From positions 1 to 49,824 of the forward strand of contig JAUZSQ010000085.1 in assembly GCA_030949325.1 (NCBI GenBank): a stretch of DNA of 49,824 nt. Reading direction: 5' to 3'. The notes below the pieces were generated by a model that saw only the letters and a program-made list of their open reading frames with translations, did no database searches and was not told the DNA's origin. The position numbers and the translations under genes were made by a program. This DNA is from Sulfurovum sp. Its GTDB lineage: Bacteria > Campylobacterota > Campylobacteria > Campylobacterales > Sulfurovaceae. The first letter of the stretch is position 1, and each line of letters begins with the position of its first letter. Shown piece after piece: positions 18,750-35,174 of this stretch.

Positions 18750-18782
18750 ATTATAGAAGAAAAGTATTACATTCTGATTACC
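18750..18782 (-). promoter_or_regulatory. Candidate Pho-box and -10 of pit
   Basis: The minus strand reads GGTAATC-AGAA-TGTAATA, then 9 bases, then TATAAT (18750-18755). The same layout (7-bp site, short spacer, 7-bp site, 9 bp, -10) precedes pstS, pstC, the PhoB-like regulator and the porin. No -35 hexamer is present, as is typical of PhoB-activated promoters. Confidence 0.65.
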
Positions 18783-18799
18783 AAATATATGAAATATGA

Positions 18800-18805
18800 T
18801 ATAAT
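18800..18805 (+). promoter_or_regulatory. -10 element for the outer-membrane protein gene at 18839
   Basis: TATAAT lies 33 bases before the ATG, with AAGG as ribosome site between. There is no recognisable -35, which is usual for Campylobacterota vegetative promoters. It is divergent from the pit promoter. Confidence 0.55.
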
Positions 18806-18838
18806 GCCAAAAGTAAAAACTATTTTAAGGAAAAACCC

Positions 18839-19423
18839 ATGAAAAAAACTGCATTAATACTAACTACTGCTTTGGCTATGACTCCATATCTATTGGCTGA
18901 GGAAACAATTATTCCCAAAGAAAAGACTTCAAGTGAGTACTCTTTATATACAGAAGGTAGCTCATTTTACTCGGCACTGGGATATTCATATATCTCTGCA
19001 GATATATATGAATCAGAAACAGGTAATGCCTATACTCTTATTGCTGGTTATACTATTAATGACTATGTAAGTATCGAAGGACGTTATAGCAAAACATTTG
19101 GTGACTTAGAGATAGAAGGTGGAGAGAAAAAAGATAAGCTCATACAAAATGGAGCACTGTATATTAAACCAAACTATGAAATATCAGAAGGAATTAATAT
19201 CTATGGACTCATTGGATATGGTGAAGTCGTTATGGCTAATACTTCAGGTGATGGATTTCAATGGGGATTGGGGATGAGTTACAAAGTTTCACCGAATGTA
19301 CATATTTTTATAGACTATACTGATCTTTATGATGGTACACTAGATAATGTGGATCTTCGTCCAGGTTATAATGTAGATACGCAAGTCAATGCAACGACTT
19401 TTGGTGTCACATACTACTATTAA
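18839..19423 (+). CDS. Outer-membrane beta-barrel protein, OmpA-barrel-like
   Basis: A 194-residue protein with a signal peptide (MKKTALILTTALAMTPYLLA, cleavage after LLA). Alternating strands follow, such as FYSALGYSYISADIY, AYTLIAGYTINDYVSIEG and INIYGLIGYGEV. The C terminus NATTFGVTYYY ends in an aromatic residue, the outer-membrane sorting signal. About eight strands fit an OmpA/OmpX-size barrel. The role could be structural or adhesive; no substrate clue is present. It is convergent with the porin gene and separated from it by a hairpin. Confidence 0.8.
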   Translation: MKKTALILTTALAMTPYLLAEETIIPKEKTSSEYSLYTEGSSFYSALGYSYISADIYESETGNAYTLIAGYTINDYVSIEGRYSKTFGDLEIEGGEKKDKLIQNGALYIKPNYEISEGINIYGLIGYGEVVMANTSGDGFQWGLGMSYKVSPNVHIFIDYTDLYDGTLDNVDLRPGYNVDTQVNATTFGVTYYY

Positions 19424-19436
19424 TCTGTCTAAAAAC

Positions 19437-19453
19437 CTCTCCTCTTGGGAGAG
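19437..19453 (-). terminator. Terminator hairpin of the porin gene
   Basis: CTCTCC-TCTTG-GGAGAG forms a 6-bp stem. On the minus strand it is followed by GGTTTTTAG, giving the U-run of an intrinsic terminator for the porin. It may also stop the convergent outer-membrane gene, although the plus side lacks a good T run. Confidence 0.65.
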
Positions 19454-19458
19454 ACTCT

Positions 19459-20586
19459 CTAATAAAATTTCACAATTACATCTAATTGTACACGCTCGTA
19501 GTCTGTCTCTAGTCCTGTTTTACTATTACTAGCATTCAGTGTATTGAAGAAGAAGTTACCAGCGATGTAGAGGTTTGTACCTGCTTTGTATTTTGCTCTA
19601 ATCGCATGACCACTTGCATCAGTACCACCACCGAAGTTATCTGAGTCAGAATATGCACCAAGTGTCGCATCTTTTTCAAGATCGGTATATGAATATTTTA
19701 CTTGCCAGTCACCGACATTTTTAGCTTTACCTAATTTAACTGCTACATCATACCCAAAGTTATCGTCATCAGCTCCAAAGTTATAGACAACACCTGCTGC
19801 TATTTTCAATGGTTTACCAAATACATTTTTCAACTGGACTTCAGCAAATCCTTCTACAATATGATAATCATTTGTAAATACACCATTAACTGCCGTATTA
19901 CCTTTAGTACTACCAAAAAGTGTTGTGTTACCTTTTAATCCATCATAATAATAAAGACCTGCACCTAAATTAAGTTTTGCAGATTCTAATTTGGTTTTAT
20001 GTACATATTGTGCGATAAAGAGATTGACATCCTCTTTGGCAACAGAAGCTTCTTCTAATGTCGGTTGGTTTAAACCTACAGTGATGATTGTTGTATCATC
20101 TTTATACTGATAATTTACACCATTCATAGAAACATCATTATCCCAAACAAGTTGTGATTTGATAGGTCTGTACATCATGTATGCTTGTCTACCTACTTTG
20201 TAAGTAGAGTTACCAGACTTATACGATAAACCTAAAACATTAAATCTCAGTGACTGTAAAAAGTAGTCGCTCAAAGGCTCATCATCATTAAAAGTTTGGT
20301 TTCCTGAAGTTGGGTTTGCAAATCCAGATCTCATACCTACTTCTAATTGAAGATTATCGATTAGATCAACTTTTACTCCTAGTCTTAAACGGTATCTATT
20401 TCTATATTTATTGTCTTTATCGTCTCTTTCTATACTCTCATATCTTAGTCTTAAATCATTTTTGAAATGAAATCTATCAAGAAAGCTATTCTCAATTGCT
20501 AAAGGTGGCTCCGTGATAGCTGTGTCTGTAGTATCTGCAATAGATAAAGTAGCCATGGTGGCTAGGGATAAGATGATTTTTTTCAT
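19459..20586 (-). CDS. Outer-membrane porin, probably phosphate-starvation inducible
   Basis: A 375-residue protein with a signal peptide (MKKIILSLATMATLSIA). A long series of barrel strands follows, including RLRYESIERDDKDNKYRNRY, FNVLGLSYKSG, YKVGRQAYMMYRP and the terminal VQLDVIVKFY with a final aromatic residue. The pattern fits the Campylobacterota Opr/Porin_5-type porins (12 or more strands). Substrate is not readable from the protein, but the promoter carries the Pho-box geometry shared with pstS and pit. I therefore infer a role in phosphate or phosphorylated-solute entry across the outer membrane. The frame is intact. Confidence 0.8.
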   Translation of the reverse strand: MKKIILSLATMATLSIADTTDTAITEPPLAIENSFLDRFHFKNDLRLRYESIERDDKDNKYRNRYRLRLGVKVDLIDNLQLEVGMRSGFANPTSGNQTFNDDEPLSDYFLQSLRFNVLGLSYKSGNSTYKVGRQAYMMYRPIKSQLVWDNDVSMNGVNYQYKDDTTIITVGLNQPTLEEASVAKEDVNLFIAQYVHKTKLESAKLNLGAGLYYYDGLKGNTTLFGSTKGNTAVNGVFTNDYHIVEGFAEVQLKNVFGKPLKIAAGVVYNFGADDDNFGYDVAVKLGKAKNVGDWQVKYSYTDLEKDATLGAYSDSDNFGGGTDASGHAIRAKYKAGTNLYIAGNFFFNTLNASNSKTGLETDYERVQLDVIVKFY

Positions 20587-20620
20587 AATGTTAGTGTCCT
20601 TCTATCAATTAATGTATAGA

Positions 20621-20652
20621 AGTATAGAGAAAGTTAGTTACAAAGAGTTACA
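20621..20652 (-). promoter_or_regulatory. Candidate Pho-box and -10 of the porin gene
   Basis: The minus strand reads TGTAACT-CTT-TGTAACT, an exact 7-bp direct repeat, then 9 bases, then TATACT (20621-20626). The spacer is 3 bases here rather than the 4 seen at pstS, pstC, pit and the regulator. The distance from box to -10 is identical. Confidence 0.65.
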
Positions 20653-20670
20653 AGGGAAAAGGGGAGAAAA

Positions 20671-20985
20671 TTATTTAGCCCCAAAAGGATTCATATCACC
20701 CATCATTCCCATAGCCTGAGACTTTTTTTGGTCTTCTACCATTTTATTGGCATCATTCATCGCAGAGATAAGCAAGATTTGTAAATACGCTTTATCATCC
20801 ATAAGTGTATCATCAATAGTCACATCAATCACTTCAGCAATACCATTGATAGTCACAGCGACCAGTCCACCACCTACTTTGGCAGTAAACTCTATATGCT
20901 TGGCCTCTTCTTGTATCTCTTTGGCTTTTTCTTGCATTTGTTCTATCATGCCTGACATCTTTCCCATATCAAATCCATCAAACAT
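20671..20985 (-). CDS. ybaB: YbaB/EbfC nucleoid-associated protein
   Basis: A 104-residue DNA-binding family protein that forms tweezer-like dimers. The N-terminal half is a Met/Glu/Lys helix (MIEQMQEKAKEIQEEAKHI). It is followed by the family strand TAKVGGGLVAVTINGIAEV and DVTIDDTLM. It ends in a Met/Gly-rich tail (GMMGDMNPFGAK). Its ATG shares one base with the panD stop codon (TAATG at 20985), so the two are translationally coupled, with panD first. The family binds DNA broadly; a specific role here cannot be said. Confidence 0.9.
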   Translation of the reverse strand: MFDGFDMGKMSGMIEQMQEKAKEIQEEAKHIEFTAKVGGGLVAVTINGIAEVIDVTIDDTLMDDKAYLQILLISAMNDANKMVEDQKKSQAMGMMGDMNPFGAK

Positions 20986-21353
20986 TATATCAGTCCTTCA
21001 AAAGATTGTGCAATCGTATTGTCTTCTTCTAAGATGACAATCTTAGGCTTATACACATCTGCTTCAGCTTCACTCATACTTGCATAGGCAATAATAATAA
21101 TCTTATCGCCCTTATGCACTTTTCTCGCAGCTGCACCATTGAGACAAATATCTTTTTTGCCTCGTTGTCCTGAGATAATATAAGTAGAGAAACGTTCACC
21201 ATTATTGATATTGACAATATCAATCTTTTGTCCTACACGCATATTGACAGCATCCATAAGGTCTTGGTCAATCGTAATAGACCCTACATAGTTAAGGTTG
21301 GCATCTGTGACCGTAGCTCTATGGAGCTTGGAGTACAACATCGTAATATTCAT
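20985..21353 (-). CDS. panD: Aspartate 1-decarboxylase
   Basis: PanD makes beta-alanine for pantothenate and CoA. It is a pyruvoyl enzyme that self-cleaves at Gly24-Ser25, visible here as NYVGSITID, which yields the pyruvoyl group. Other family blocks are [27 protein letters not shown] and IIIIAYA. The 122-residue length is standard. It precedes ybaB, overlapping by one base. Confidence 0.95.
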
Positions 21354-21418
21354 ACGGAATCCTATTTAGTATATTAAATGAGTAAAATTATAGCAAAAAA
21401 TAGTAAAATACTTACATA

Positions 21419-21796
21419 CTATGTAGCAATAGACGCAGGGTCTATAGCTTCGCCCCACATCATATCAGGAATCACATATTCAGAAACCACATTCCCACCA
21501 ATAATATGCTCATCAATAATCTTATTGATTTTTTCTTTTGTCAAATTGACATACATAATATGCCCAGGTTCTACTAACATCACAGGACCACTGGCACAAC
21601 GGTTAAGACATCCTGTTTGAATAGGTGTAACTGTACCTATAATCCCTTTTTTCATAAGTGTTTGAGACAAATGCTGGAAGAGTTCTTGTGATTCTTTGTC
21701 ATCTGCTTTGACACAGGCAGGTTTTGGCATCCCCGGAGGTGCTGATTGTTGGCATTTGAAAATGTAAAACGCTGGTTGTGGTATTCCTGGTATCAT
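21419..21796 (-). CDS. Thioredoxin-like (2Fe-2S) ferredoxin
   Basis: A 125-residue soluble protein of the thioredoxin-fold 2Fe-2S family (NuoE-like). The cluster cysteines are in IFKCQQSAPPGMPKPAC near the N terminus and in TGCLNRCASGPVMLVEPG near the middle. The family carries electrons in the cytoplasm; its partner is unknown. The start MIPGIPQPAFYIF lies close to its likely promoter in the gap facing the DUF6394 gene, from which it is divergent. Confidence 0.85.
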   Translation of the reverse strand: MIPGIPQPAFYIFKCQQSAPPGMPKPACVKADDKESQELFQHLSQTLMKKGIIGTVTPIQTGCLNRCASGPVMLVEPGHIMYVNLTKEKINKIIDEHIIGGNVVSEYVIPDMMWGEAIDPASIAT

Positions 21797-21923
21797 AGTA
21801 ATATCCTCGAAAGTTTAATTTTTTGCTATTCTATCCCTATTTCCTTAATTATAGATTAGTGCTATTAAGTCTATATCATAACTTCAATGGTTATAATAAT
21901 CATTCAAATAATGAGGAGTTTGA

Positions 21924-22262
21924 ATGAATTGGGGTAAAGTTTTTTATATGTTTTTTACATTGATGTCCCTCACGACATCTGCAGCATTTCTTTATGAGCA
22001 TTCTATGGTGGCACTCTTTATCGCTTCTTCTGTTAATGTCATTTCTACACTGATGAAAATTGGTGTGCGTAACTTGCTTTCAGCAGAGCTATTGGCAGGG
22101 TCATTGGTTGCAGACTTACACCTCATCCCTGCATTTTTTTCTTTGCAATTTTACCAAAATGAACCCTTGGCAATTGGATTGGTCATTGGAGCAGTCATAG
22201 CCAATATCTATACCCTCGTACTAGCTATCATAGAAAGTACCCAACAAAAAGTAGATTTTTAG
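21924..22262 (+). CDS. DUF6394-family small membrane protein
   Basis: A 112-residue protein with three to four hydrophobic helices (VFYMFFTLMSLTTSAAFLY, MVALFIASSVNVISTL, PLAIGLVIGAVIANIYTLVL). It looks like the DUF6394 family common in Campylobacterota; the function is unknown. TATAAT is at 21892-21897 and GAGGAG precedes the ATG. The next gene, dacB, starts with GTG directly after its stop, so they are co-transcribed. Confidence 0.7.
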   Translation: MNWGKVFYMFFTLMSLTTSAAFLYEHSMVALFIASSVNVISTLMKIGVRNLLSAELLAGSLVADLHLIPAFFSLQFYQNEPLAIGLVIGAVIANIYTLVLAIIESTQQKVDF

Positions 22263-23661
22263 GTGCAAAAGAGTTTTATATTATACCTATTACTCTCCAT
22301 TTGGCTCTTTGCTTTACCACAAGCTATCAATCAAAAGATTCAACAAAGTGGTATCGCCAAAAAAGATATTAGTATCTATATCAAAGAAGCAGGAGTCGGT
22401 GGCAAGGTCTTGGTGTCACTCAATGCCAAAACTACACGTACCCCTGCTTCTGTGATGAAAGTACTTACCACCTACGCAGCCATACGCAAATTAGGATTTA
22501 ATTATCGTTGGCAAACCAAATTTTATACCCAAGGTAAGATAAAAAATGGTGTACTGTATGGAGATTTAATCATACAAGCTTTGGGTGACCCTTCCTTGCA
22601 TACGCGGGACCTCAATAAAATCGTCTCTTATATCCGTGCTGAAGGTATCAAAGATATTGAAGGTAATATCATTATTGATAGAAGTTATTTCAACGTAGGC
22701 AATCAAAATAGTGCACATTTTGATGACAATCCCTACAGTCCTTATAATGCCTTGCCTGATGCGATGATGTTTAATGAGCGTATTAGTACCGTATGCCTTA
22801 ACCCCAAACGTAAGCTCGTCTATAAGAAAATAGAAGACGAAAGTTACCGTGTCATTAACAGACTCACCCATGTCAATAACCCCTGTAAAGGGAAATACTC
22901 TTGGCCTAGTATCAAGGTAGTCGAAAGTGAGTCAATGCCTAGTATCATACTCCAAGGTAAGATTTCAAAACACTGTAAGCCACGTAATATCTCTAAGGTA
23001 TTGACCAAGCCTTACCAATCGTTTTACTATGCCTTACTAGAAGTAATGGACAACTATGATATCTCTGTCTCAGGTTCACTCGAACTACAGAAGGTACCTA
23101 AAGGGGCAAAAGAACTCTTTAGCTACTCTGCTAATGCGTTAGAAGCTATTGTCTCGAAAACAGCTAAAAAGAGTAATAATCTTTATGCAAGACAGCTCTT
23201 ACTTCTCCTAGGTGCCAAAACCTATGGTAGCCCTGCGACACTCACAAAAGGACGTAAAGCCATTCGACAGATACTCTCTTCTTCTCAGGCTTTAAGCAGT
23301 GGACTCTTAAAATTAGACAACGGTTCAGGCTTGTCTCGTATAGCCAAACTCAATGCTGTACTCTTGGGACATATCTATGACAATGCCTATGACCGTTATG
23401 GCAAAAGATGGATGAACACCCTCTCCATTGCAGGAATTGATGGTACTATTAAAAGACGTTTCCGTCATACCATAGTCAAAAATAGGGCATGGATGAAAAC
23501 AGGTACACTCAAAAATGTCAAAAATATCGGAGGATATGTACAAGATATTGAAGGGTAAGCTCTATACGGTAGTGATATTTGTCAATAGTACAAAAGCCCG
23601 ATACCAAGGGGCTAAACTGCAAAATGAGATTATGAAATGGCTAGTCAAAAATGGAAGCTAA
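22263..23661 (+). CDS. dacB: D-alanyl-D-alanine carboxypeptidase/endopeptidase, PBP4 class (one frame break)
   Basis: A periplasmic low-molecular-mass penicillin-binding protein that trims or opens peptidoglycan cross-links. It has a signal sequence (LYLLLSIWLFALPQA), the SxxK motif PASVMKVLTTYAA near residue 60, an SNN motif (KKSNNLYARQLL) near 300, and the KTG motif AWMKTGTLKNVKNIGGY near 415. The frame stops at 23558 after QDIEG. Reading GG instead of GGG at 23553-23555 continues to 23661 with KLYTVVIFVNSTKARYQG, the usual C terminus, for about 465 residues. It starts at GTG, immediately after the DUF6394 stop. The break looks like an indel error. Confidence 0.88.
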
Positions 23662-23667
23662 AGCCTT

Positions 23668-24540
23668 TTAGTCACAAAAACGTTTGAGAAGACAGTCATA
23701 AGATTCAATACGCCTATCACGAAGAAAAGGCCAAATATCTCGTACCTCTTTGGTACGTTCATGTATGATATCAGCATAAAGAATCGTCTCTTCTTGATGC
23801 TTCGCATGTGTGAGTATTTCTCCTTGTGTGCCACAGATAAAAGAGTTTCCCCAAAACCTTGTGCCTTTGAGCACTCCACTAGGGTCATACTCCACCCCCA
23901 CACGGTTACAAGAGATAACAGGAATCGCATTGGCTATAGCGTGAGAGCGTTGTATGGTAATCCAGCTGTCTAATTGTCTGTGTTTTTCTTCGGTACTGTC
24001 AGTATCAAACCATCCAATGGCTGTAGGATAAATGAGTATCTCAGCACCTCTAAGCGTCATAATCCTTGAAGCTTCAGGATACCATTGATCCCAGCAAATC
24101 AGCACTCCTAAGCTACCTACAGAAGTCTGTATAGGTTCAAAACCCAAGTCCCCAGGGGTAAAATAAAACTTTTCATAAAATCCTGGGTCATCAGGGATAT
24201 GCATTTTACGGTATTGTCCTGCTATCGTGCCATCTTTTTCAAATACCACTACTGTATTGTGATACAATCCTGCTGTACGTTTCTCAAACAAAGAAGTCAC
24301 AAGGACTATACTATGCATTTTGGCAATATTTGACCAAAATACTATATCAGATTCAAAGCTATTGGCATAGGCAAAAAAGCGTGTATCTTCACATTGACAA
24401 AAGTACTCTGTTTGATGTAATTCTTGCAATACTACCAACTCTGCCCCTGCTTCACTAGCTTCGGCAATAGATGCACAAGTCGCTTGAATGGTTGTGCTTT
24501 TACTTCCATGATATTGTTGTTGAATCACTGCTGTTTTCAT
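23668..24540 (-). CDS. aguB: N-carbamoylputrescine amidase
   Basis: A carbon-nitrogen hydrolase (nitrilase superfamily) that turns N-carbamoylputrescine into putrescine, CO2 and ammonia. The Glu-Lys-Cys catalytic set is visible: ELVVLQELHQTEYF (E), YRKMHIPDDPGFYEKFYFTP (K), and GVLICWDQWYPEASR (C). At 290 residues it is the family length. Its ATG overlaps the aguA stop by 4 bases, giving an aguA-aguB operon. It is convergent with dacB, 6 bases apart. The frame is intact. Confidence 0.93.
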   Translation of the reverse strand: MKTAVIQQQYHGSKSTTIQATCASIAEASEAGAELVVLQELHQTEYFCQCEDTRFFAYANSFESDIVFWSNIAKMHSIVLVTSLFEKRTAGLYHNTVVVFEKDGTIAGQYRKMHIPDDPGFYEKFYFTPGDLGFEPIQTSVGSLGVLICWDQWYPEASRIMTLRGAEILIYPTAIGWFDTDSTEEKHRQLDSWITIQRSHAIANAIPVISCNRVGVEYDPSGVLKGTRFWGNSFICGTQGEILTHAKHQEETILYADIIHERTKEVRDIWPFLRDRRIESYDCLLKRFCD

Positions 24541-25562
24541 AAAGACTCCTCATATCCTATTTGCATAGTAGAGCAATGTAAACTGCCCCCTTGTTCCACG
24601 AGCTTTAGACAAAGAATGGGAATACATTCTTTATCAGGAAAAAGGCGTTTAAAAATCAAGCCTACTTCCTTGTCATGCCTATCATTGTAGGTTGGATATA
24701 ACACGGCATGGTTAATGATAAGAAAATTGGCATACGTTGTGGCTAATCGTTCCTGCTTGGTATTGTATATCGCATCGCTCATAGGCAAAGCTATCAGATG
24801 ATAAGGCTTTCCTTCTTTTGTCCTAAACGCTTGAAGCGCTTGTTCCATCTGGGACAAAGACGCATGATGCTCATCCTCTTTATCATAAGACTTCACATAC
24901 ACAATCGTATCTCTATTGATAAAACGTGCCAAAGTATCTATATGTCCATCGGTATCATCTCCTGCTAAGTAGCCATGGTCTAACCATAAAATACGCTCTG
25001 CCCCAAGGTATTCCAAAAACCTTGCTTCTACTTGGGGTTTACTCAATCCTCCATTACGGTTAGGATGACAGAGACAAGAAGACGTCGTCATAATCGTACC
25101 CTCTCCATCGCTCTCAATAGCACCTCCTTCTAAGACAAAATCTATAGGCACTAAAGGAGTGATTCCCATATAGCCTTTTTGCTGTAGAGTATGATTGACC
25201 TTCGTATCAAGTCTTGCATCAAACTTCCCTCCCCAACCATCAAAAGTAAAATCAAGCAAGGTATTTTTAGCATTTTCTCTACAGCTAATCATCCCATAAT
25301 CACGAATCCATGTGTCATTTGTTTCTATCTCAATAAAGGTCAAGTTACGCGTAGAACAAAACAATGACGCTATGTGTATTTTGTCATCACAGACTATATA
25401 CACAGCTTGTCTGTAAGCAATAGCCTGAGCAATACGGATAAAGACGCAGAGTGCCTCATCCAAAGAAGCCTTATTATCCTCTTCGTACCAATCGGTATTT
25501 TGATGTGGGAAACTCATCAATACACAGGCTTGTTTTTCCCATTCTGCTGGTATCACTCTCAT
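24537..25562 (-). CDS. aguA: Agmatine deiminase
   Basis: A guanidino-group hydrolase converting agmatine to N-carbamoylputrescine, the first half of the agmatine route to putrescine. Family blocks: the substrate-binding TWIRDYGMISC, the FEGGA-like FVLEGGAIESDGEGT, the catalytic DHGYLAGDDTDGHIDTLARF, and the nucleophilic Cys in GGSLHCSTMQ near the C terminus. The 341 residues match stand-alone bacterial AguA. It is followed by aguB, overlapping 4 bases, and is divergent from alr with only 26 bases between. Confidence 0.94.
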   Translation of the reverse strand: MRVIPAEWEKQACVLMSFPHQNTDWYEEDNKASLDEALCVFIRIAQAIAYRQAVYIVCDDKIHIASLFCSTRNLTFIEIETNDTWIRDYGMISCRENAKNTLLDFTFDGWGGKFDARLDTKVNHTLQQKGYMGITPLVPIDFVLEGGAIESDGEGTIMTTSSCLCHPNRNGGLSKPQVEARFLEYLGAERILWLDHGYLAGDDTDGHIDTLARFINRDTIVYVKSYDKEDEHHASLSQMEQALQAFRTKEGKPYHLIALPMSDAIYNTKQERLATTYANFLIINHAVLYPTYNDRHDKEVGLIFKRLFPDKECIPILCLKLVEQGGSLHCSTMQIGYEESL

Positions 25563-25577
25563 TTTAAGCCTTTACGA

Positions 25578-25583
25578 TATAAT
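25578..25583 (+). promoter_or_regulatory. -10 element giving a likely leaderless alr mRNA
   Basis: TATAAT ends 5 bases before the alr ATG (25589), and no ribosome binding site fits between. Transcription would begin at or next to the start codon. The start is well supported by the alanine racemase N terminus. Confidence 0.55.
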
Positions 25584-25588
25584 CTATT

Positions 25589-26589
25589 ATGGCATTTATT
25601 ACAATTAACAAACAACATTTCCACCATAATCTTAACCAAATTGCACTTCAAACTGGCTCAGTAGATAAAATTGCTATTGTACTCAAAGACAATGCCTATG
25701 GGCATGGTCTTGTACGCATGGCAACATTGGCATCAGACTTTGGTATCAAACATGCAGTGGTGCGTAATATCCAAGAAGCCCAACAGATAGACACCCTCTT
25801 TGAAAGTCTCTTAATCTTAGGCGATACCCCTACCCTCACAGGAGGATACCATTATGCTCTCAATAGCCTAGAAGACATACAACACACAGCCCAAGCTAAC
25901 AAAGTCGTTCTCAAAGTCGATACAGGGATGCATCGTAATGGTATTGCCATGAGTGAACTCACCCAAGCCCTAATAGAGATAAAAGCAAGAGACTTAGACC
26001 TCGTAGGACTCATGACACACTATCGCTCTGCTGATATCTTAAGTTCGGAGTTCTTTTGGCAACAAAAACAATTTGAAATAGTCAAAAGACAAGTCAAAGA
26101 CGCAGGGTTTGACAATATAAGCATCCATTCTCATAACTCTGCTTCTATTTGAGAAATACACATTTTAGTGAAAGTAGCGTTCGTGTAGGTCTTTCCGTCT
26201 ATGGATATAATGAACTCCCTTGCGTATTTGACAACATCATACTCAAACCTGTTCTAGCTCTTTATGCCACAAAAATTTCTACAAGAATACTCCAACAAGG
26301 ACAAAGAATTGGCTATGGAGGGGATTTTATAGTAAAAGAAACCATGTCTGTCTCTACTTATGATATAGGCTATGGAGATGGGTTACATCGTTATCAAGAG
26401 ATACCCTTTATTACCGCTACAGGCTTAGCGATATTAGGACGTATTTCTATGGATTTTATCTCTTTAGCTTCCAATCAAGAGACAGTCTGCATTATAGACA
26501 ATGCCCAAGAAGTAGCAAAACAATGGAATACTATCTCCTATGAAGTCCTCACAAGCCTACATCCTGATATACCAAGACGTATTATCTAA
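25589..26589 (+). CDS. alr: Alanine racemase (one frame break)
   Basis: A PLP enzyme making D-Ala for peptidoglycan. The PLP lysine is in [18 protein letters not shown] near residue 36. The second catalytic Tyr lies in the IGYGG ... YDIGYGDG region, and [10 protein letters not shown] is the C-terminal family motif. The frame breaks after [10 protein letters not shown] run of three at about 26147-26149 read as four joins it to [20 protein letters not shown], the expected continuation, giving about 333 residues. The gene is normally needed for wall synthesis, so an indel error is the best reading. It overlaps the next convergent gene by 4 bases. Confidence 0.9.
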
Positions 26590-27242
26590 TGATTCATCTG
26601 CTCAAAGAGTAATGCTTTGGCTTCTTGTCTTTCAAAGGCTTGTCTTTCTTGTGTGGTCATTAAGGCACGTTTGAGTATTTTATTTTCCTTAGGTGAAGTA
26701 CTGCGTATTTCAATCACATCAATATACTCATCAGGATTTTTTGCTATCACTTCAACTTTTTCTACCAAAGCTTTGACTTCGGGAACATCTACTTTGGGAA
26801 GCGTAGTAATTTCTCGTACTAACTCTACTACATCTATTTTCTTTACAACTTCTTCTACTTCTTCTACTGCTTTTATTTCTTCGCTAGGTTTGACTATCTC
26901 CACATACACCTCACTCACTTCTAGCTCTTGTATACTTTGCGTTTTATAGTCAATAAGATACACAATATACGCAATATTAAACAACAAAACTATCGAAAGC
27001 AAGAAAAAGAATATCTTTAACCAAGAACGTTTTTTAGGGGTTTTTTGAGAGTCATTGGCTTGATTCTCTCCTGCGTCCTCTAGCTCTTCGGAGAGTGCTT
27101 CTTCAGGTTCTTTGGCTTTGAGATATTTAGACATCCCTACAGGTGTTTCTTCTACAATAGGTTCATCTACTTGCTTATTTTGGGAAACTTTATCGTGAAT
27201 CTTGTCTAGGAGTTCATTATTGGAGGAAGTAGGTTCATTCAT
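26586..27242 (-). CDS. Hypothetical single-pass membrane protein
   Basis: A 218-residue protein I do not recognise. Residues 1-70 are acidic and polar. A basic patch (KTPKKRSW) then precedes one transmembrane helix (LKIFFFLLSIVLLFNIAYIVYL, about 74-95). The rest is a Glu/Val/Lys-rich segment (VKPSEEIKAVEEVEEVVKKI) and a charged tail (KRALMTTQERQAFERQEAKA), with no cysteines or enzyme motif. Basic residues before the helix predict the N terminus inside and the C terminus in the periplasm. It lies between alr and bamA; an envelope role is possible but unsupported. Confidence 0.7.
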   Translation of the reverse strand: MNEPTSSNNELLDKIHDKVSQNKQVDEPIVEETPVGMSKYLKAKEPEEALSEELEDAGENQANDSQKTPKKRSWLKIFFFLLSIVLLFNIAYIVYLIDYKTQSIQELEVSEVYVEIVKPSEEIKAVEEVEEVVKKIDVVELVREITTLPKVDVPEVKALVEKVEVIAKNPDEYIDVIEIRSTSPKENKILKRALMTTQERQAFERQEAKALLFEQMNH

Positions 27243-27340
27243 GGGTATCTTTTTAATGGATTTACTAATGGTATATTCTATTGAGTTAAACTTTAGTCAA
27301 GATAAGGAGGAGGAGTATTCCTATCTCCCCCTTACAATAT

Positions 27341-29635
27341 TTAAAACTTTGTTCCCATAGAGAATTCAAAGGTAGAAGTTCTATCACCTTCTATCTCATC
27401 AAGAGGATAGGCAAAGACTAGGTTGATAGGACCAAATGCTGATTGCCATTCAAGTACCACACCCGTAGAGGAACGAGAGACAGAATCTATACCAATATTG
27501 CTTTCAGAATCGAGTGATACGATACCATAATCATAGAAAAATGCCAAACGCATCTTCGCTGCTTCTGAGAGAGGAATACTCGCTTCAAGGCTTCCTGAGA
27601 TACGTTTTGTACCCCCTACCAATGCACCTGTATTCAATGATGGAGAGAGTGAATAAGGGTCATATCCTCTAACGCTACCGATACCACCCATAAAGAGTTT
27701 CTCAGCTGTGGGTATTTTCTCACCATCATTACGAGAAATATAGGTAAATCTACCTTTAGCCCGTAGAATTAAATCATAATCTAAAATATCTTCTAATCCA
27801 TAATATAATCCTAGCTTACCAGAAGTTTTGAGGAAATCACCATATCCATTAGGAAACAATTGCAAGTCAACATCATCACCTGCTAATTGTGCATACTCAA
27901 AGTTCATAGTAGCTTTTACCCCTTCTCTTGGGATATAAAAGTCATCCGTATTATCAAAATTAATCGTAGTAAAACCTGAGGTTTTTTCATATTGGTCATT
28001 GTATAAAAAATCTTGCAAAATGTTATCTGCATTATCATTGATAGTCGATTGATTATCTACATAACCTACACCCACAGAAGCATGTACATATCTATAGAAT
28101 TCTTTACCAATAGACACTGAAGCACCCAATTGGTCTTGGCTATAATCAATGTATTCATAATCTCGCTTATAGACACTCACAGACATACTATACATGCTAT
28201 CCCATACTTTTGGATTGACAAAAGAAAGGTTATAGTTTGTAGCAATTTTAGAAATTTCAAATCCTAGCGTCGTATTGATTCCTGAACCAAATAAGTTTCT
28301 ATCAGAAATAGAAGCATTGACCATCAATCCTTCATACGAACCATATCCACCACCTGCTGAAATCGTTCCAGTAGAAGCTTCTTTGACATTGACTAGGAGG
28401 TTAATTTCATTGGCTGAGATACGTTGACTCTGAATATCTACTTTGTCAAAAAATCCTGTTCTTCCCAATGCAGCCTTTGAGTCTTTCAAATCTCTAGCAT
28501 TAAACTTATCACCTGGGGCTAAATAAATATAACGACGGATGACTCTGTCTTTGGTATTGGTATTTCCTGAGATAATGACATCTTTGATAGTCACAGGTTG
28601 ACCTTCTGAAATTACATAATTGAGTTCTACCGTTTGGGCATGAATATTCTTATTCATTTGTGGAGAAACACTCACATAGGCAAAACCATAATTTCCAACT
28701 AGGGCTTCAAGTTTTTTAATATCTTTACGCATACGCTTAATATTAAAGACTTTACCTTCTTTGAGTAGAAGGTCATCTTTGAGACCCTGTGTTTTGAGTC
28801 CTGCAATGCTGTGCGTAATCTTGATTGAACCTACACGATATTGCACACCTTCTACAATTTGATAATCTACTTCTGCTTTGTACGAACCAAAATCTACACG
28901 CATCAAAGGCTTACTGACTTTTACATCAAGGTATCCATGTTCCATATAGGTATTTTTCACTCTATGTGCATCATATTCTAGTTGTCCTACAGACGCTTCA
29001 CCATCATTTCTCCAAGGCATCCACCCTAAAGTATCTTCTTCCTTAGAGGCTAAGTTCCTTTGAATTTCATCTTGACTCAATGCTTTTGCACCAATAAAGT
29101 TCATCTTTTTGATGGTAATCTTTTCACCTTTATTGACATCAAAGACAATAGAGACACTGCTCTTACCTACATTTTTTTTGCTTACGGCTACAACACTGTT
29201 ATAGTATCCTTTGGCTTGTAATTTGGCTTTTATAGCCTTTGTCGCTTTTTTGACACGTCTTTCGTCATAAAGGTCACCCTTTTTGATACCAATACCTGCC
29301 AAAAGCTCTGACCCATCATCACCTGAGCCATAGCCTTTGATTTCCACATTGGCAATGGCTAGTTTTTCTTTAAAATGATAAATAAGTTTACCACCCTTTT
29401 GATCTACCCATACATCTTTAAAATACCCTTGTACAAAAAAGTTTTTAATAGATTCATTAATATTCCCTGCTGTGATTTCTTCACCGACATGAATACCTGC
29501 TATTTCTTTGGCAGAACTAGCAGAAAGATGTGCCAAACCGACAAATTGAATTTGTGTCACTTTTTGTGCAAATAAGAATGAACCTATCAGCATCCAAAAG
29601 AATAATATCTTAGAAAACTGTGTTGTTTTTACCAT
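27341..29635 (-). CDS. bamA: Outer-membrane protein assembly factor BamA
   Basis: The core of the machine that folds beta-barrels into the outer membrane. It has a signal peptide (ILFFWMLIGSFLFA). POTRA domains run from about residue 25 to 430 (e.g. GVQYRVGSIKITHS, EGQPVTIKDVIISGNTNTKD). A 16-strand barrel follows, with the loop-6 motif GIGSVRGYDPYSL near residue 640 and a C-terminal FEFSMGTKF ending in Phe. At 764 residues the length is normal. The frame is intact. It is followed by the single-pass membrane protein gene on the same strand. Confidence 0.95.
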   Translation of the reverse strand: MVKTTQFSKILFFWMLIGSFLFAQKVTQIQFVGLAHLSASSAKEIAGIHVGEEITAGNINESIKNFFVQGYFKDVWVDQKGGKLIYHFKEKLAIANVEIKGYGSGDDGSELLAGIGIKKGDLYDERRVKKATKAIKAKLQAKGYYNSVVAVSKKNVGKSSVSIVFDVNKGEKITIKKMNFIGAKALSQDEIQRNLASKEEDTLGWMPWRNDGEASVGQLEYDAHRVKNTYMEHGYLDVKVSKPLMRVDFGSYKAEVDYQIVEGVQYRVGSIKITHSIAGLKTQGLKDDLLLKEGKVFNIKRMRKDIKKLEALVGNYGFAYVSVSPQMNKNIHAQTVELNYVISEGQPVTIKDVIISGNTNTKDRVIRRYIYLAPGDKFNARDLKDSKAALGRTGFFDKVDIQSQRISANEINLLVNVKEASTGTISAGGGYGSYEGLMVNASISDRNLFGSGINTTLGFEISKIATNYNLSFVNPKVWDSMYSMSVSVYKRDYEYIDYSQDQLGASVSIGKEFYRYVHASVGVGYVDNQSTINDNADNILQDFLYNDQYEKTSGFTTINFDNTDDFYIPREGVKATMNFEYAQLAGDDVDLQLFPNGYGDFLKTSGKLGLYYGLEDILDYDLILRAKGRFTYISRNDGEKIPTAEKLFMGGIGSVRGYDPYSLSPSLNTGALVGGTKRISGSLEASIPLSEAAKMRLAFFYDYGIVSLDSESNIGIDSVSRSSTGVVLEWQSAFGPINLVFAYPLDEIEGDRTSTFEFSMGTKF

Positions 29636-29692
29636 AAGAGGACCTTTATATAATTTAACAATATCATATCATAATAAACAGAAAAATCATGC

Positions 29693-29698
29693 TATACT
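29693..29698 (+). promoter_or_regulatory. -10 element of tyrA
   Basis: TATACT lies 25 bases before the tyrA ATG, with AGAGGA as ribosome site between. No -35 is recognisable. Confidence 0.5.
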
Positions 29699-29723
29699 TT
29701 GTAAAAATGATAAGAGGAATGAT

Positions 29724-30566
29724 ATGTATAGATATAAGATAGGTTTTATTGGCTTAGGTCTCATGGGAGGTTCGTTGAGTATTGCCCTACAAAAACTTCC
29801 CTCTAAGGACTATTACCTAGGATATGACCACAATACTCTACACTGTCAACAAGCCTTAGCTCTCAACCTTGTAGATAAAATTGCCCTCTCCTTAGAGGAG
29901 ATAAAATCCTGTGATATTATTTTTATTTCTATTCCTGTCGATGGGATTATCGCTGTGTCTCAACTATTGGTAGGTATCTCCAAAGACTGTACCGTCATTG
30001 ATTTAGGCAGTACCAAAGAAAAGATTTCTGCCTCTATTCCTCCTAGCATACGCTCCAACTTCGTCACAGCACATCCCATGACAGGTACAGAAAAGTTTGG
30101 TCCCACATCAGCCATTGACAATCTTTATACCGATAAGGTCGTTGTATTGTGTGACATACGCAAAAGTGGCTCACATCAAGAAAAGATTGCCAAAACCTTA
30201 TTTACTGATATAGGTATGAACATCGTCTGTATGGATGCCAAAGAACATGACCGACACGCTGCGTTTATCTCTCACATGCCTCACGCTTTGTCTTATGCAC
30301 TTGCCAATGCCGTCATACAGCAAGAAGATGCTACAAGTATTATCGCTCTTGCAGGAGGTGGATTTAGAGATATGAGCCGTATTGCCAAATCTTCTCCTAG
30401 TATGTGGGAAGATATTTTTAGACAAAACAAGACCAATGTACTAGAAGCCCTAGATAGCTTTCAACTAGAATTAGCCAAATGTCAAGAAATGGTAGAAAAT
30501 GAAGAGTGGGATAAGCTCAACAGCTGGATGAAAGATGCGAATACATTACATACTATATTGAAATAG
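29724..30566 (+). CDS. tyrA: Prephenate dehydrogenase
   Basis: Oxidatively decarboxylates prephenate toward tyrosine. An N-terminal Rossmann fold has GFIGLGLMGGSLSIAL (NAD binding) at residue 7. The substrate-binding HPMTGTEKFGP is near 115, and HDRHAAFISHMPHALSYAL near 175. A helical C-terminal dimerisation part contains AGGGFRDMSRIA. The 280 residues are the size of a monofunctional TyrA; there is no chorismate mutase or ACT domain. It is followed by the PhoB-like regulator, which has its own promoter. Confidence 0.92.
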   Translation: MYRYKIGFIGLGLMGGSLSIALQKLPSKDYYLGYDHNTLHCQQALALNLVDKIALSLEEIKSCDIIFISIPVDGIIAVSQLLVGISKDCTVIDLGSTKEKISASIPPSIRSNFVTAHPMTGTEKFGPTSAIDNLYTDKVVVLCDIRKSGSHQEKIAKTLFTDIGMNIVCMDAKEHDRHAAFISHMPHALSYALANAVIQQEDATSIIALAGGGFRDMSRIAKSSPSMWEDIFRQNKTNVLEALDSFQLELAKCQEMVENEEWDKLNSWMKDANTLHTILK

Positions 30567-30581
30567 CCATTTTATACCTTT

Positions 30582-30614
30582 GGTAATCAAAATGTTACTC
30601 TTATGTACTATTAT
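30582..30614 (+). promoter_or_regulatory. Candidate Pho-box and -10 of the PhoB-like regulator
   Basis: GGTAATC-AAAA-TGTTACT (30582-30599), then 9 bases, then TATTAT (30609-30614). The first half-site is the same heptamer as in the pit promoter. The -10 ends 6 bases before the ATG at 30621, so the mRNA may be leaderless. The site suggests autoregulation. Confidence 0.6.
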
Positions 30615-30620
30615 ACAAGT

Positions 30621-31307
30621 ATGGAAAATATAGATATAGAAATTATTGTCATAGAAGATGAACCCGATATATTGGAATTGCTTGAATATATACTTAGGAA
30701 AGAAGGATATACCGTGACAGGATTTTTCTCTACTCATAATGTCGAAGCCTTTTTAGAAGAAGAAAACCCTAGTCTCATGATAGTAGATAGAAATTTACCC
30801 CATATTGAAGGTAGCCAATTTGTCCTACAAATGAGAGAGATAGGCTATCATATCCCTGTCATATTCCTCACAGCAAGAGACAAAGAGAGTGATATTATTG
30901 AAGGGTTTGAATCTGGTGGTGACGACTATATGACCAAACCTTTTTCAGCCAAAGAATTGCTCGTACGCGTAGGGGCATTATTACGCCGTGCAGGAGTAAC
31001 CCATAATACACAGAAGTTACGCTACAAAGATTTGATTCTTGACCTACATCAACGGTTGGTATTTATAGATGACAGAGAAATAGAACTTACCAACCTTGAA
31101 TTTAAATTGCTTCTTACTTTTGTCAAGAGTCCTCAGCAGACCCTTGATAGAGATTTCCTTAGAGATGAGGTATGGGGAGATGATAGTACTACTTTTCATG
31201 ATAAAACCATCAATGTAGCCATGAATAGACTCAAAAAAAAGATAGACCCCCAAGGTACAAAAGAGTACTTTACTCCTGTGTGGGGTGTGGGCTACAAACT
31301 CCTGTAA
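30621..31307 (+). CDS. PhoB-like response regulator of the phosphate regulon
   Basis: OmpR-family two-domain regulator. Receiver: acidic pair in IVIEDEPDILELLEY, phospho-acceptor Asp in LMIVDRNLPHIEG, Thr in VIFLTARD, Lys in DDYMTKPFSAKELL. DNA-binding winged helix: NLEFKLLLTFVKSP and KTINVAMNRLKKKI. I prefer the ATG at 30621 (MENIDIEI) over 30603, since the upstream one lies in the promoter. It sits directly before pstS and has Pho-box-like promoter sites itself, so it is the likely PhoB/PhosR counterpart. No PhoR or PhosS kinase gene is adjacent or elsewhere in the window. It is a paralogue of the regulator at 15104. Confidence 0.88.
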   Translation: MENIDIEIIVIEDEPDILELLEYILRKEGYTVTGFFSTHNVEAFLEEENPSLMIVDRNLPHIEGSQFVLQMREIGYHIPVIFLTARDKESDIIEGFESGGDDYMTKPFSAKELLVRVGALLRRAGVTHNTQKLRYKDLILDLHQRLVFIDDREIELTNLEFKLLLTFVKSPQQTLDRDFLRDEVWGDDSTTFHDKTINVAMNRLKKKIDPQGTKEYFTPVWGVGYKLL

Positions 31308-31335
31308 CCAAATTGTTTCCAAGTTCTTTTATACT
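31303..31335 (+). promoter_or_regulatory. Candidate Pho-box and -10 of pstS
   Basis: TGTAACC-AAAT-TGTTTCC (31303-31320), then 9 bases, then TATACT (31330-31335). A weaker third repeat, TCTTTTA, continues the 11-bp period and overlaps the -10. The 13 bases around the spacer nearly match the pstC site. The box overlaps the end of the regulator gene. Confidence 0.7.
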
Positions 31336-31378
31336 TTCACTAATTCATCGCTAAGATGATACTTTAAAGGAACGCATT

Positions 31379-32380
31379 ATGACCGTTAAAACATTCATTA
31401 GCACTGCTATTATTTCTTCTCTAGGACTTACTTCTGTTTATGCAGACGATTTAAAAGGAAGAGGGGCTTCTTTCCCAGGTCCTGTATATAAAGCATGGAC
31501 AGCAGGATATTATGCCGATACCAAAGCACAAGTAAACTACACACCTACGGGTTCAGGTGATGGAATTAAATCTATCTCCAAAAGAATGGTAGATTTTGCT
31601 GGTTCAGACAAGCCACTTAAAGCCCAAAAACTTGCCAAAGAAAAACTTTATATGTTTCCTGCTGTCATTGGTTCAATCGTTTTAGCCTACAATATTGAAG
31701 GTATCAAAGATGGAGAACTTAAACTGAGCCGTGCAGCTATTGATGCAATTTTTACAGGAAAAGTTTCTTTTTGGGATGATGCACTCATTACCAAAGACAA
31801 TGCAGGACTGAAATTACCTCACAAAGCGATTACTACTTGTGTAAGAGCCGATAAATCAGGTACAACTTTTAACTTTACTTATTTCCTAAACAAAATTAAT
31901 CCTGAGTTTAAAATCAGTAAAAAACCTACATGGAAAGCCTCTAGCGTGATTGCTGGAAAGTCTAACTCTGGTGTATCTGCAAATATCCAACAGATTAAAA
32001 ACTCTATTGGATATATTGAATATTCTTACAAAATCAAATTAGGTCTTCCTGCAGCACAAGTGGAAAACAAAGAAGGTCACTTCATCAACCCAACTGTAGC
32101 CTCTTTTCAAGATGCAGCTAAATATGCTTCATGGACAGCAGAAAATGACTTTTATGCCGTCATTGCTGACCCAAAAGGTGCAACATCTTACCCTATAGTA
32201 GCAGCGACATTTATCTTGCTTCCTATAGAAAAAGAAGAGACAAACAAAGCCGTCACAGCCTTTATTGACTGGTCTTACAAAAATGGTGACACACTAGCTT
32301 CAGACTTAGGTTATGTACCCCTTCCAACAGAGACAAAAGATGCAGTTAGAGCTTATTGGGTAACTAAAAATATTAAATAA
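31379..32380 (+). CDS. pstS: Periplasmic phosphate-binding protein PstS
   Basis: The solute receptor of the high-affinity phosphate ABC importer. It has a signal peptide (TFISTAIISSLGLTSVYA). The phosphate-site blocks are GRGASFPGPVYKAW, YTPTGSGDGIKSI and DFAGSDKPL in the first third, then VRADKSGTTFNFTYFL and KSNSGVSANIQQI. The 333 residues match the family. A Pho-box promoter lies upstream and AAAGGA precedes the ATG. Normally pstC follows; here an opposite-strand Rpn gene lies between, and pstC has its own Pho-box promoter. Confidence 0.95.
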   Translation: MTVKTFISTAIISSLGLTSVYADDLKGRGASFPGPVYKAWTAGYYADTKAQVNYTPTGSGDGIKSISKRMVDFAGSDKPLKAQKLAKEKLYMFPAVIGSIVLAYNIEGIKDGELKLSRAAIDAIFTGKVSFWDDALITKDNAGLKLPHKAITTCVRADKSGTTFNFTYFLNKINPEFKISKKPTWKASSVIAGKSNSGVSANIQQIKNSIGYIEYSYKIKLGLPAAQVENKEGHFINPTVASFQDAAKYASWTAENDFYAVIADPKGATSYPIVAATFILLPIEKEETNKAVTAFIDWSYKNGDTLASDLGYVPLPTETKDAVRAYWVTKNIK

Positions 32381-32398
32381 CCCTTAACTAACCTTTGC

Positions 32399-32449
32399 CC
32401 TTCACACAAGATAAAATTCCTTGAATCTTTTTTTACACTTGTGTGAAGG
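32399..32449. repeat. Perfect 12-bp inverted repeat after pstS
   Basis: CCTTCACACAAG (32399-32410) and CTTGTGTGAAGG (32438-32449) flank a 27-base loop that contains a T7 run. It could be a terminator or mRNA-stabilising hairpin for pstS, or a scar of whatever brought in the Rpn gene. There is no copy of it on the far side of the Rpn gene. Confidence 0.6.
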
Positions 32450-32470
32450 CAATCCCTCTATCCCCTTTTC

Positions 32471-33382
32471 TTATTTCAAATTTTTTATCTCTTCAATTTC
32501 TAAACCTGTTGCTAATCTAATCGTATCTAGCTCTATATTAGATTTTAATAAGTTTTTAGCTACCTCTAAATTTCTTTTATATTCTCCTTCTTCTCGTCCT
32601 TGTTCTAATCCTTGTTCTAATCCTTTGGCAAGTCCTTTCTCCAATCCTTTGGCAAGTCCTTTCTCCAATCCCTTAGCTTCAGCTGTATCTAGTGTATTCA
32701 CCCAATCTCTATAATGTTTTAAACTCAGTTCATACTCTTTTCGTTTTTCAGGGTTCATTGTTGCAAGTTCAGAAAGAGAAAAGGCTTTTTCTATAATATC
32801 CTCTTTAAACCCCTCTGGAATTTCATCTAATTCGCTTAATTCATTAAAAAACCATAACCATTTTTCAAGATGATTGGATAACTCTTTTTCTGTTTTTTTA
32901 AATTTTGGTAATTCTATATAAATAAAAGAAAGTTTATCGTACATTACATTATTCGTATCTCTATCTGTAATTTGTCCATAATGTAGATAATTATCATCCT
33001 TAAAATCGTTCACTTTAAAATTGAGAATACCTACAAAATAAATCGGTGTAAGTTGAAAATTCCAATCTCCTCTTGTGGCTTGTTCACGAATAGGAAAAGA
33101 GGTATAATATAATGCTCTATCTTGAAAATATGTTTGTCCTGCTCGTTGAAGTTCTACGATAAACATATTATCTTTTTCATCTTTACAATGTATATCAAAA
33201 ATAGCTTTTCTATCCTCTTTTAACATTCCTGTATATTCATTCTTATTAAAATTGAGCGAAACAATTTTATCTGTAATAGGTAATAAATCATTTAAGAAGC
33301 TTATCAATAGTGGTTTAGACTCTTCACTACCAAAAATGCGTTTAAAACCAAAATCTGTAAATGGGTCTATATAAGTTGCCAT
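32471..33382 (-). CDS. Rpn/PD-(D/E)XK-family nuclease-transposase-like protein
   Basis: The product matches the Rpn (recombination-promoting nuclease, YhgA-like) family. N terminus YIDPFTDFGFKRIFG is the family hallmark. The PD-(D/E)xK core is visible as AIFDIHCKDEKDNMFIVELQ (D ... E-x-Q). The C terminus has KGLEKGLA-type repeats, typical of the family and encoded by a DNA tandem repeat. I start at ATG 33382 because AAAGGAA precedes it. Known Rpn proteins are DNA nucleases linked to phage defence and recombination. The gene lies on the opposite strand between pstS and pstC, an unusual place that indicates insertion. The frame is intact at about 303 residues. Confidence 0.85.
   Translation of the reverse strand: MATYIDPFTDFGFKRIFGSEESKPLLISFLNDLLPITDKIVSLNFNKNEYTGMLKEDRKAIFDIHCKDEKDNMFIVELQRAGQTYFQDRALYYTSFPIREQATRGDWNFQLTPIYFVGILNFKVNDFKDDNYLHYGQITDRDTNNVMYDKLSFIYIELPKFKKTEKELSNHLEKWLWFFNELSELDEIPEGFKEDIIEKAFSLSELATMNPEKRKEYELSLKHYRDWVNTLDTAEAKGLEKGLAKGLEKGLAKGLEQGLEQGREEGEYKRNLEVAKNLLKSNIELDTIRLATGLEIEEIKNLK
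32594..32672 (-). repeat. Tandem repeat in the Rpn gene C-terminal region
   Basis: A 24-base unit is repeated exactly at 32619-32642 and 32643-32666. Next to it are two copies of a 12-base unit (CCTTGTTCTAAT). Translated on the minus strand this gives KGLEKGLA repeated and then KGLEQGLEQG. Units are multiples of 12, so slippage changes length without breaking the frame. Confidence 0.85.
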
Positions 33383-33436
33383 ATTTTTTCCTTTTCTATA
33401 CAAATATTATAGTCAATTTCCTACCCATTGTCAAAA

Positions 33437-33469
33437 TGTTACCAAATTGTAACTGTATTCCTATAGTAT
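33437..33469 (+). promoter_or_regulatory. Candidate Pho-box and -10 of pstC
   Basis: TGTTACC-AAAT-TGTAACT (33437-33454), then 9 bases, then TAGTAT (33464-33469). TATAGT at 33462 is an alternative -10. The box core ACCAAATTGT is identical to that of pstS. A second promoter here would let pstCAB be expressed despite the Rpn gene upstream. Confidence 0.65.
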
Positions 33470-33496: not shown

Positions 33497-34351
33497 ATGG
33501 GTGGAACTTTTTTTAAAAACTTCTCTTTCTTTTCAGCAACACTTTCATTTTTCCTTCTTATTGGTATTTTTTCTATCCTCTTTTCTTATGCACAAGATGC
33601 TTTACATGAATTTGGGTTTGACTTCTTATTTAATGAAGTTTGGGAAGCCGATGAAGATGATGAAGGGGGAATATTTGGTGGATTTATTCCTATTATTGGG
33701 ACGCTTCTTTCTACACTGATTGCAATGATTATTGCCACACCTTTGGCAATGGGGATTGCGATTTTTCTTACAGAGATTGCTTCAAGCAAGATTGCTAAAC
33801 CTGTCTCTATTGCGATTGAGCTTCTTGCTGCTATTCCTAGCATTATCTATGGAATGTGGGGATTGTTTTATTTTGCTCCTATCGTACAAGAATATATCGG
33901 AGGCAATGGTGTAGGACTTCTCACAGCAGGGATTGTTTTGGCGATTATGATATTGCCTTTTATGGCTGCGATTAGTAGAGATGCAATGCAAACGACACCT
34001 GCTGTACTCAAAGAATCAGCTTATGCTATGGGTGCGACGAAGTTTGAAGTGATTAAAGATGTGATTATGCCTTATGCCAAAGGGGGGATTATCGGTTCGG
34101 TCATTCTTGCCTTGGGTCGAGCCTTGGGAGAGACGATGGCTGTGGCATTCTTGATTGGTTCGGTGATGAGTATCCCGTCTTCTATCACAGACCCTAGCAC
34201 TTCTATTCCTGTACTTTTGGCAAATAATTTTGCCGAAGCACAAGATTTGGAAATGTCTGCAATGTATTATTTGGCACTTATCTTATTTATTGTGAGCCTT
34301 GTGATTATCTCTATCGCTAAATTTTATTTTTTACGCACAAAGGTTAAATAA
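33497..34351 (+). CDS. pstC: Phosphate ABC transporter permease PstC
   Basis: A 284-residue inner-membrane subunit with six hydrophobic helices. The acidic periplasmic stretch EADEDDEGGIFGGFIPIIGT comes after the first helix. The ABC-coupling EAA loop is ESAYAMGATKFEVIKDVIMP, followed by RALGETMAVAFLIGS, typical of PstC. AAAGG lies 7 bases before the ATG. The pstA start follows its stop directly. It pairs with PstA in the membrane and receives phosphate from PstS. Confidence 0.95.
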   Translation: MGGTFFKNFSFFSATLSFFLLIGIFSILFSYAQDALHEFGFDFLFNEVWEADEDDEGGIFGGFIPIIGTLLSTLIAMIIATPLAMGIAIFLTEIASSKIAKPVSIAIELLAAIPSIIYGMWGLFYFAPIVQEYIGGNGVGLLTAGIVLAIMILPFMAAISRDAMQTTPAVLKESAYAMGATKFEVIKDVIMPYAKGGIIGSVILALGRALGETMAVAFLIGSVMSIPSSITDPSTSIPVLLANNFAEAQDLEMSAMYYLALILFIVSLVIISIAKFYFLRTKVK

Positions 34352-35161: not shown

Positions 35162-35174
35162 AAGAGGATATAAA

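Follow-up and report, generated by a model that had tools for sequence, protein, structure and literature searches.

The window described here, by which we mean the whole stretch of 49,824 nt that was analysed (G+C content 36.9%), is contig JAUZSQ010000085.1 of Sulfurovum sp., from an assembly of 2.53 Mb in 115 contigs. It carries genes for the PstSCAB phosphate transporter and PhoU, a PiT-type phosphate transporter (pit), an outer-membrane porin and two response regulators, which we call PhoB-like 1 and PhoB-like 2 (Table 1). Five of its promoters, those of pstS, pstC, PhoB-like 1, pit and the porin gene, are confirmed to share one Pho-type box.

The sites had been pointed out in an initial annotation made from the letters of the window, and the sequence agrees with it letter for letter: each site consists of two 7-bp half-sites with a spacer of 3-4 bp, followed by 9 bp and a -10 hexamer. 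They read TGTAACC-AAAT-TGTTTCC-N9-TATACT (pstS), TGTTACC-AAAT-TGTAACT-N9-TAGTAT (pstC), GGTAATC-AAAA-TGTTACT-N9-TATTAT (PhoB-like 1), GGTAATC-AGAA-TGTAATA-N9-TATAAT (pit) and TGTAACT-CTT-TGTAACT-N9-TATACT (porin). A single geometry had been claimed for all of them; four sites follow it (7-4-7-9-6) as direct repeats at a period of 11 bp, which is also the period in relatives, whereas the porin site is built 7-3-7-9-6 with a period of 10 bp. The distance of 9 bp to the -10 is the same at all five sites and puts the box in the -35 position, for which a role in the promoter is predicted, and the columns TA....T of the -10 are conserved in alignments whose rows were chosen by score.

A pattern written from these sites (NGTWAYC-N4-TGTWAYH-N9-TAHNHT, at most one mismatch) matched the window four times, always at a known site, against a mean of 0.07 matches over 100 shuffles, none of which reached four; in the form with a 3-bp spacer its sole match was the porin site (0.01 expected, 1 of 100 shuffles reaching one). 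Both forms were written after the sites had been seen, so that these numbers speak for specificity rather than as independent support, and the independent tests are those in relatives. Across the genome's own assembly the pattern occurred at eight places, four being the pit, PhoB-like 1, pstS and pstC promoters, and the reversed control at five. The off-target matches were rejected as credible promoters, judged by eye: one is a tandem repeat (C21), one sits within the beginning of a cytochrome-c-like open reading frame (ORF; C51), one overlaps an opposite-strand ORF near a contig end (C86) and one falls between ORFs of a plasmid-like contig (C2).

Table 1. Pho-type sites, phosphate genes and neighbouring features of the window.
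Feature	Position	Strand	Basis and remarks
Pho-type box and -10 of PhoB-like 1 gene	30582..30614	+	sequence; relatives
Pho-type box and -10 of pstS	31303..31335	+	sequence; relatives; overlaps end of PhoB-like 1 gene
Pho-type box and -10 of pstC	33437..33469	+	sequence; relatives
Pho-type box and -10 of pit	18750..18782	-	sequence; relatives; weaker form
Pho-type box and -10 of porin gene	20621..20652	-	sequence; 3-bp spacer, 4-bp spacer in relatives
PhoB-like 1, receiver and winged-helix response regulator	30621..31307	+	Pfam PF00072, PF00486
PhoB-like 2, paralogue	15104..15787	-	no box upstream
pstS	31379..32380	+	NCBIfam TIGR00975, above cut-off
pstC	33497..34351	+	NCBIfam TIGR02138, above cut-off
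pstA, pstB, phoU (3' of pstC)	34352..36631	+	ORFs; phoU PF01895; pstA and pstB by eye and position
pit (PiT phosphate transporter), two ORFs	17180..18720	-	PF01384 in first part
Outer-membrane porin, Porin_5 family	19459..20586	-	PF16930; barrel model
OmpA-like beta-barrel gene	18839-19423	divergent from pit	PF13505; shares intergenic region containing the pit box
PD-(D/E)XK transposase-family ORF	32471-33403	opposite to pstS and pstC	PF12784; between pstS and pstC

Conservation was followed in a sample of 120 genomes of the family, the window's own included, in which matches were found to the regulator in 102 (E-value limit 1e-40), to pstS in 64, pstC in 68 and pit in 91 (1e-20 for each), and to the porin in 26 (1e-10). 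The 150 bases before each gene and its first 15 bases were scanned for a box, with the spacings fixed at 4 and 9 bp; the scan covered the best-scoring loci, and the counts therefore refer to close orthologues. At a score of 2.5 or better (shuffle rates 0.07-0.25%, rising to 1.6-2.8% at 3.5), a box stands before pstS in all 29 relatives, before pstC in 28 of 29, before PhoB-like 1 in 26 of 29 and before the porin in 19 of 24. The 24 are the 25 relatives with a porin less one locus that was too short (L247), and still count a fragment lacking its promoter (L255). Before pit the box reaches 2.5 in 5 of 29 relatives and 3.5 in 22 of 29, and has a weaker consensus of its own, nGTAACA-AAAT-TGTAATA. 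The box is thus conserved upstream of the orthologous pst, pit and porin genes, more weakly at pit, and upstream of the phoB-like genes too. The 3-bp porin spacer, which had been taken into the common description of the box, did not prove general: in every one of the 24 relatives scored the best site is spaced by 4 bp, by a score that favours this length. Farther out, a search of 200 genomes of the phylum found pstS in 50, own included, and a box precedes it in 27 of the 29 other loci examined (2.5 or better; shuffle rate 0.2%); two of these loci come from the same family, and 20 further matching genomes lie outside the count.

Gene-blind scans, together with the orthologues, put the box ahead of phosphate genes, with no general occurrence at other sites, and both lines support the TGTWAC-type PhoB site that the initial annotation had suggested for this lineage. 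The pattern TGTWAYC-N4-TGTWAYY-N9-TAHNHT matched exactly 40 times in 23 of 30 other genomes of the genus, and its reversed form not once. The genes behind these boxes encode PhoB-like 1 (11), a porin-like family without a Pfam barrel match (8), Porin_5 porins (4), PstS (3), PstC (1), porins of the Porin_O_P type (2), DUF3450 proteins (3) and Ig-like lipoproteins (2); six of the proteins were scanned against Pfam, and the rest were named by BLAST to the window genes or by eye. A second pattern, applied to 10 hand-picked genomes, gave 27 matches and one for the reversed control; 24 of the 27 stand ahead of a porin, porin-like, pit or pstC gene, the own genome contributing pit alone.

PhoB-like 2 is 60% identical to PhoB-like 1, and the best NCBIfam model for both is PhoB (TIGR02154). 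The protein starting at 30621 had been put forward as the regulator that binds the box; it stands as a candidate, but not as the only one, given the paralogue at 15104-15787 that went unlisted. A quick tree built from 102 sequences puts PhoB-like 2 into a clade of 30 (Shimodaira-Hasegawa-like approximate likelihood ratio test, SH-aLRT, 99). No row of this clade has a box at the place where PhoB-like 1 carries it, whereas 35 of the 72 other rows do; assigned by best match, PhoB-like 2 has a box at 0 of 29 loci with enough upstream DNA. A DNA-reading helix, [IV]NV[AT]xNRLK, is common to both regulator groups (8 of 30 and 2 of 73 rows were not matched by the search expression), so that both regulators are probably able to read the same box. 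The PhoR model TIGR02966 exceeded its cut-off in none of six genomes, where many kinase matches fell below it, and in only 1 of 14 controls.

The start codon of PhoB-like 1 follows the -10 by 6 bases in the window (region 30609-30623), and by 5-7 bases in 11 distinct genes of the genus. Starts were sought only downstream of the -10, an upstream start thereby being excluded by construction, and it is the constancy of the distance that counts as evidence; given a transcription start at the usual distance, the message would be leaderless.

The structure model of the window porin is a beta-barrel (mean predicted local distance difference test score, pLDDT, 77.8). Foldseek ranks OmpM1 first by E-value (TMq 0.63) and Campylobacter jejuni MOMP next (0.52), with OprO at rank 16 (0.57) and OprP at rank 25 (0.56), which gives the barrel no special likeness to OprP; in the Pfam scan the protein matched Porin_5 (PF16930) only and not the Porin_O_P profile PF07396. 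Basic residues occupy every second place in the strands 39-54 and 60-76. K42, R46, R48, R54, R62, R64, R66 and R68 are invariant in 16 porin sequences, with the acidic D44 and E50 among them, and K42, R46, R48, R54, R66 and R68 are still so in 24 more divergent ones. These basic residues would form the lining on one side of the pore; as general porins carry basic clusters too, they only hint at a preference for anions.

The porins behind the box in relatives belong to more than one family. In eight relatives (L265, L267, L274, L279, L280, L281, L285, L290) it precedes exported barrel-like proteins of 358-452 amino acids, several with an N-terminal coiled coil; the two members scanned gave no Pfam barrel match. 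A search with the profile of this second porin-like family found no barrel in the PDB, and its structure model is poor (mean pLDDT 51). DUF3450-type genes stand behind the box in L291, L301 and L303 (L301 scanned, the others similar by eye) and possibly belong to a phosphate-controlled, energised system for uptake across the outer membrane. Ig-like lipoprotein genes follow it in L286 and L304 (L304 scanned, L286 similar by eye).

The arrangement of the genes also ties the sites together. One relative (L306) has the order porin-like, porin, pit, PhoB-like 1, pstS, pstC, pstA, pstB, phoU, PhoB-like 2, recQ, and another (L033) a similar order that lacks the Porin_5 gene and has a polyphosphate-kinase-like gene ahead of recQ, the recQ and polyphosphate-kinase-like names being given by eye; among the 25 relatives that have a porin match, 14 carry the porin gene immediately ahead of pit and on its strand. 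The window has these genes as two blocks, porin-pit-PhoB-like 2-recQ on one strand and PhoB-like 1-pstS-pstC-pstA-pstB-phoU on the other, so that sites separated here by 12 kb fall within a single cluster in L306 and L033. The pstC box sits between the transposase-family ORF and pstC, and pstS and pstC adjoin in both relatives. The pit frame is broken near 18064-18076, where three relatives have a single ORF of 512-514 amino acids; an alanine-racemase-like gene (25589-26589, by eye) is also present as two overlapping ORFs, and the broken frames reflect either real decay or assembly errors. The ORF at 13267-15045 was considered as a histidine kinase and rejected, being by eye a RecQ-type helicase.

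We consider it highly probable that the five sites are PhoB-type activator sites of a phosphate-starvation regulon; binding by the regulator, activation and the low-phosphate trigger are what we infer from the arrangement of sites and genes. Low phosphate would lead to phosphorylation of PhoB-like 1, PhoB-like 2 or both, and the phosphorylated regulator would bind two head-to-tail 11-bp direct repeats (TGTWAYC-N4-TGTWAYC) in place of the -35 and recruit sigma-70 polymerase to the -10 starting 9 bp downstream. Such a regulon would provide uptake across both membranes through the outer-membrane porin, PstSCAB-PhoU and PiT, and the control of PhoB-like 1 by its own box would amount to positive feedback. 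Several observations weigh against this or against the reality of the sites. For 6 of the 40 boxes in the genus the target is absent or doubtful, and 3 of the 27 matches of the second scan have no credible gene. The own genome yields no exact match to the strict genus pattern, its sites being slightly off the consensus of the relatives, and the porin spacer is 3 bp in the own sequence. A looser pattern, with up to three mismatches, is not enriched in that genome (102 matches against 157 for the reversed control) and was discarded as useless for detection. The shuffle rate is 2.8% at the score that most pit orthologues reach; the box is missing at the PhoB-like 1 position in 37 of the 72 rows outside the PhoB-like 2 clade; both regulators, at 180.9 and 171 bits, stay under the TIGR02154 equivalog cut-off of 296.2 bits, hence the name PhoB-like; and the clusters read contain no gene for a cognate kinase.

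The unenriched three-mismatch pattern is what one would expect if the likeness of the sites were due to chance in A+T-rich DNA, but the shuffles, reversed patterns and orthologues contradict this, the orthologues in our view refuting it for pstS, pstC, PhoB-like 1 and the porin and less firmly for pit; we regard chance as practically out of the question. Another regulator of the OmpR family might bind the box in place of PhoB-like 1 or 2, the phosphate genes then being only part of its targets. The boxes before DUF3450 and lipoprotein genes, whose link to phosphate is not obvious, would fit such a binder, as would the sub-cut-off scores; yet PhoB-like 1 sits in the same cluster and bears the box itself in most relatives, and of the 40 boxes in the genus 29 stand ahead of a PhoB-like, pst or porin-like gene, and we hold this explanation to be very improbable.

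Two further alternatives accept the sites as real and concern single genes. Genes for PiT are repressed under PhoB in some bacteria, and repression rather than activation at pit, perhaps also at the porin, would accord with the distinct, weaker pit box and with low-affinity PiT transporters often not being induced by starvation; the distance of 9 bp between the pit box and its -10, equal to that at pstS, pstC and the porin, is nevertheless the arrangement of an activator, and repression seems to us rather unlikely. The porin box of the own genome may be non-working on account of its 3-bp spacer, the porin then being a member of the regulon in relatives only, or the spacer may be a sequencing error. 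The 4-bp spacers of the relatives and the broken pit frame nearby, which fits an error-prone assembly, speak for this, whereas both half-sites (TGTAACT) and an exact TATACT are intact; it is a possibility we take seriously while leaning towards a working site.

Phosphate-starvation activation through the box may take a reduced form in part of the genus. Eight genomes of 94% completeness or more lack a pstS or pstC match at 1e-20 and have one regulator each at 1e-40, in every case from the PhoB-like 2 clade. The pit box is kept in seven of them (not in G003), at the loose scores of 2.5-3.5 usual for pit, and the porin box in all five that have the porin. PhoU scored above cut-off in all 4 of the pst-bearing genomes tested and in none of the 8 pst-less ones, G104 giving one match below it; PhoU scores are low even where the protein is present (33-39 bits against 23.5), and a divergent PhoU could be missed. 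Tentatively, part of Sulfurovum might have a stripped Pho regulon of PhoB-like 2 with box-driven porins and PiT, without detectable Pst or above-cut-off PhoU. In the textbook scheme the phosphate signal passes through the Pst-PhoU complex; here, if the regulon responds to phosphate, the signal would bypass it, perhaps via PiT, and in pst-bearing species the regulator pair would represent a division of labour in which a self-activating PhoB-like 1 with a leaderless message is tied to pst. Sensing for the Pho regulon without Pst and PhoU becomes directly testable in these pst-less relatives.

The sites furnish a usable model for phosphate control in Sulfurovum-type bacteria; a literature search, with subscription journals largely uncovered, returned no paper on a Pho box or Pho-controlled porin of Sulfurovum. 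The Escherichia coli Pho box is described as two 11-nt direct repeats with the core CTGTCAT (PMC4415409). Like the E. coli PhoB sites, those of Sulfurovum are two direct repeats with an 11-bp period upstream of a -10, before phosphate uptake genes and the regulator itself. Unlike in E. coli, the half-site is TGTWAYC and the reading helix INVAxNRLK rather than VDVHIRRLR, there are two PhoB-like paralogues, and porins are frequent targets.

The pho box of the C. jejuni PhosS-PhosR system, from the same phylum, has the same 11-bp period; its published consensus is reportedly GTTTCNAAAANGTTTC, a string not confirmed in the literature searched, and most Sulfurovum half-sites have WAY where the Campylobacter one has TTC. 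The initial annotation had set the Campylobacter half-site apart as a different type, a separation that does not hold: GTTTC forms also occur in Sulfurovaceae-type pstS promoters (TGTTTCC-AAAT-TGTTTCC in L150, L154 and L170 of the family), and two pstS loci of one genus in the phylum have TGTTTCC-ATTT-TGTTTCT, the PstS of one being 79% identical to that of Campylobacter fetus. The half-site thus grades over from one form to the other, and we take the Campylobacter and Sulfurovum sites to be versions of one site, which would indicate a single site family through the phylum to Campylobacter. In C. jejuni phosS and phosR adjoin (cj0889c-cj0890c; PMC9449129), unlike the regulators here, beside which the clusters read have no kinase gene.

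Outer-membrane porins are a predicted core of the phosphate response, and in this the system resembles that of Pseudomonas OprP and OprO, outer-membrane barrels with apparent phosphate control. A Porin_O_P member (PF07396) lies behind the box in one relative (L275), with a second similar by eye (L269), whereas the porin of the window belongs to Porin_5.

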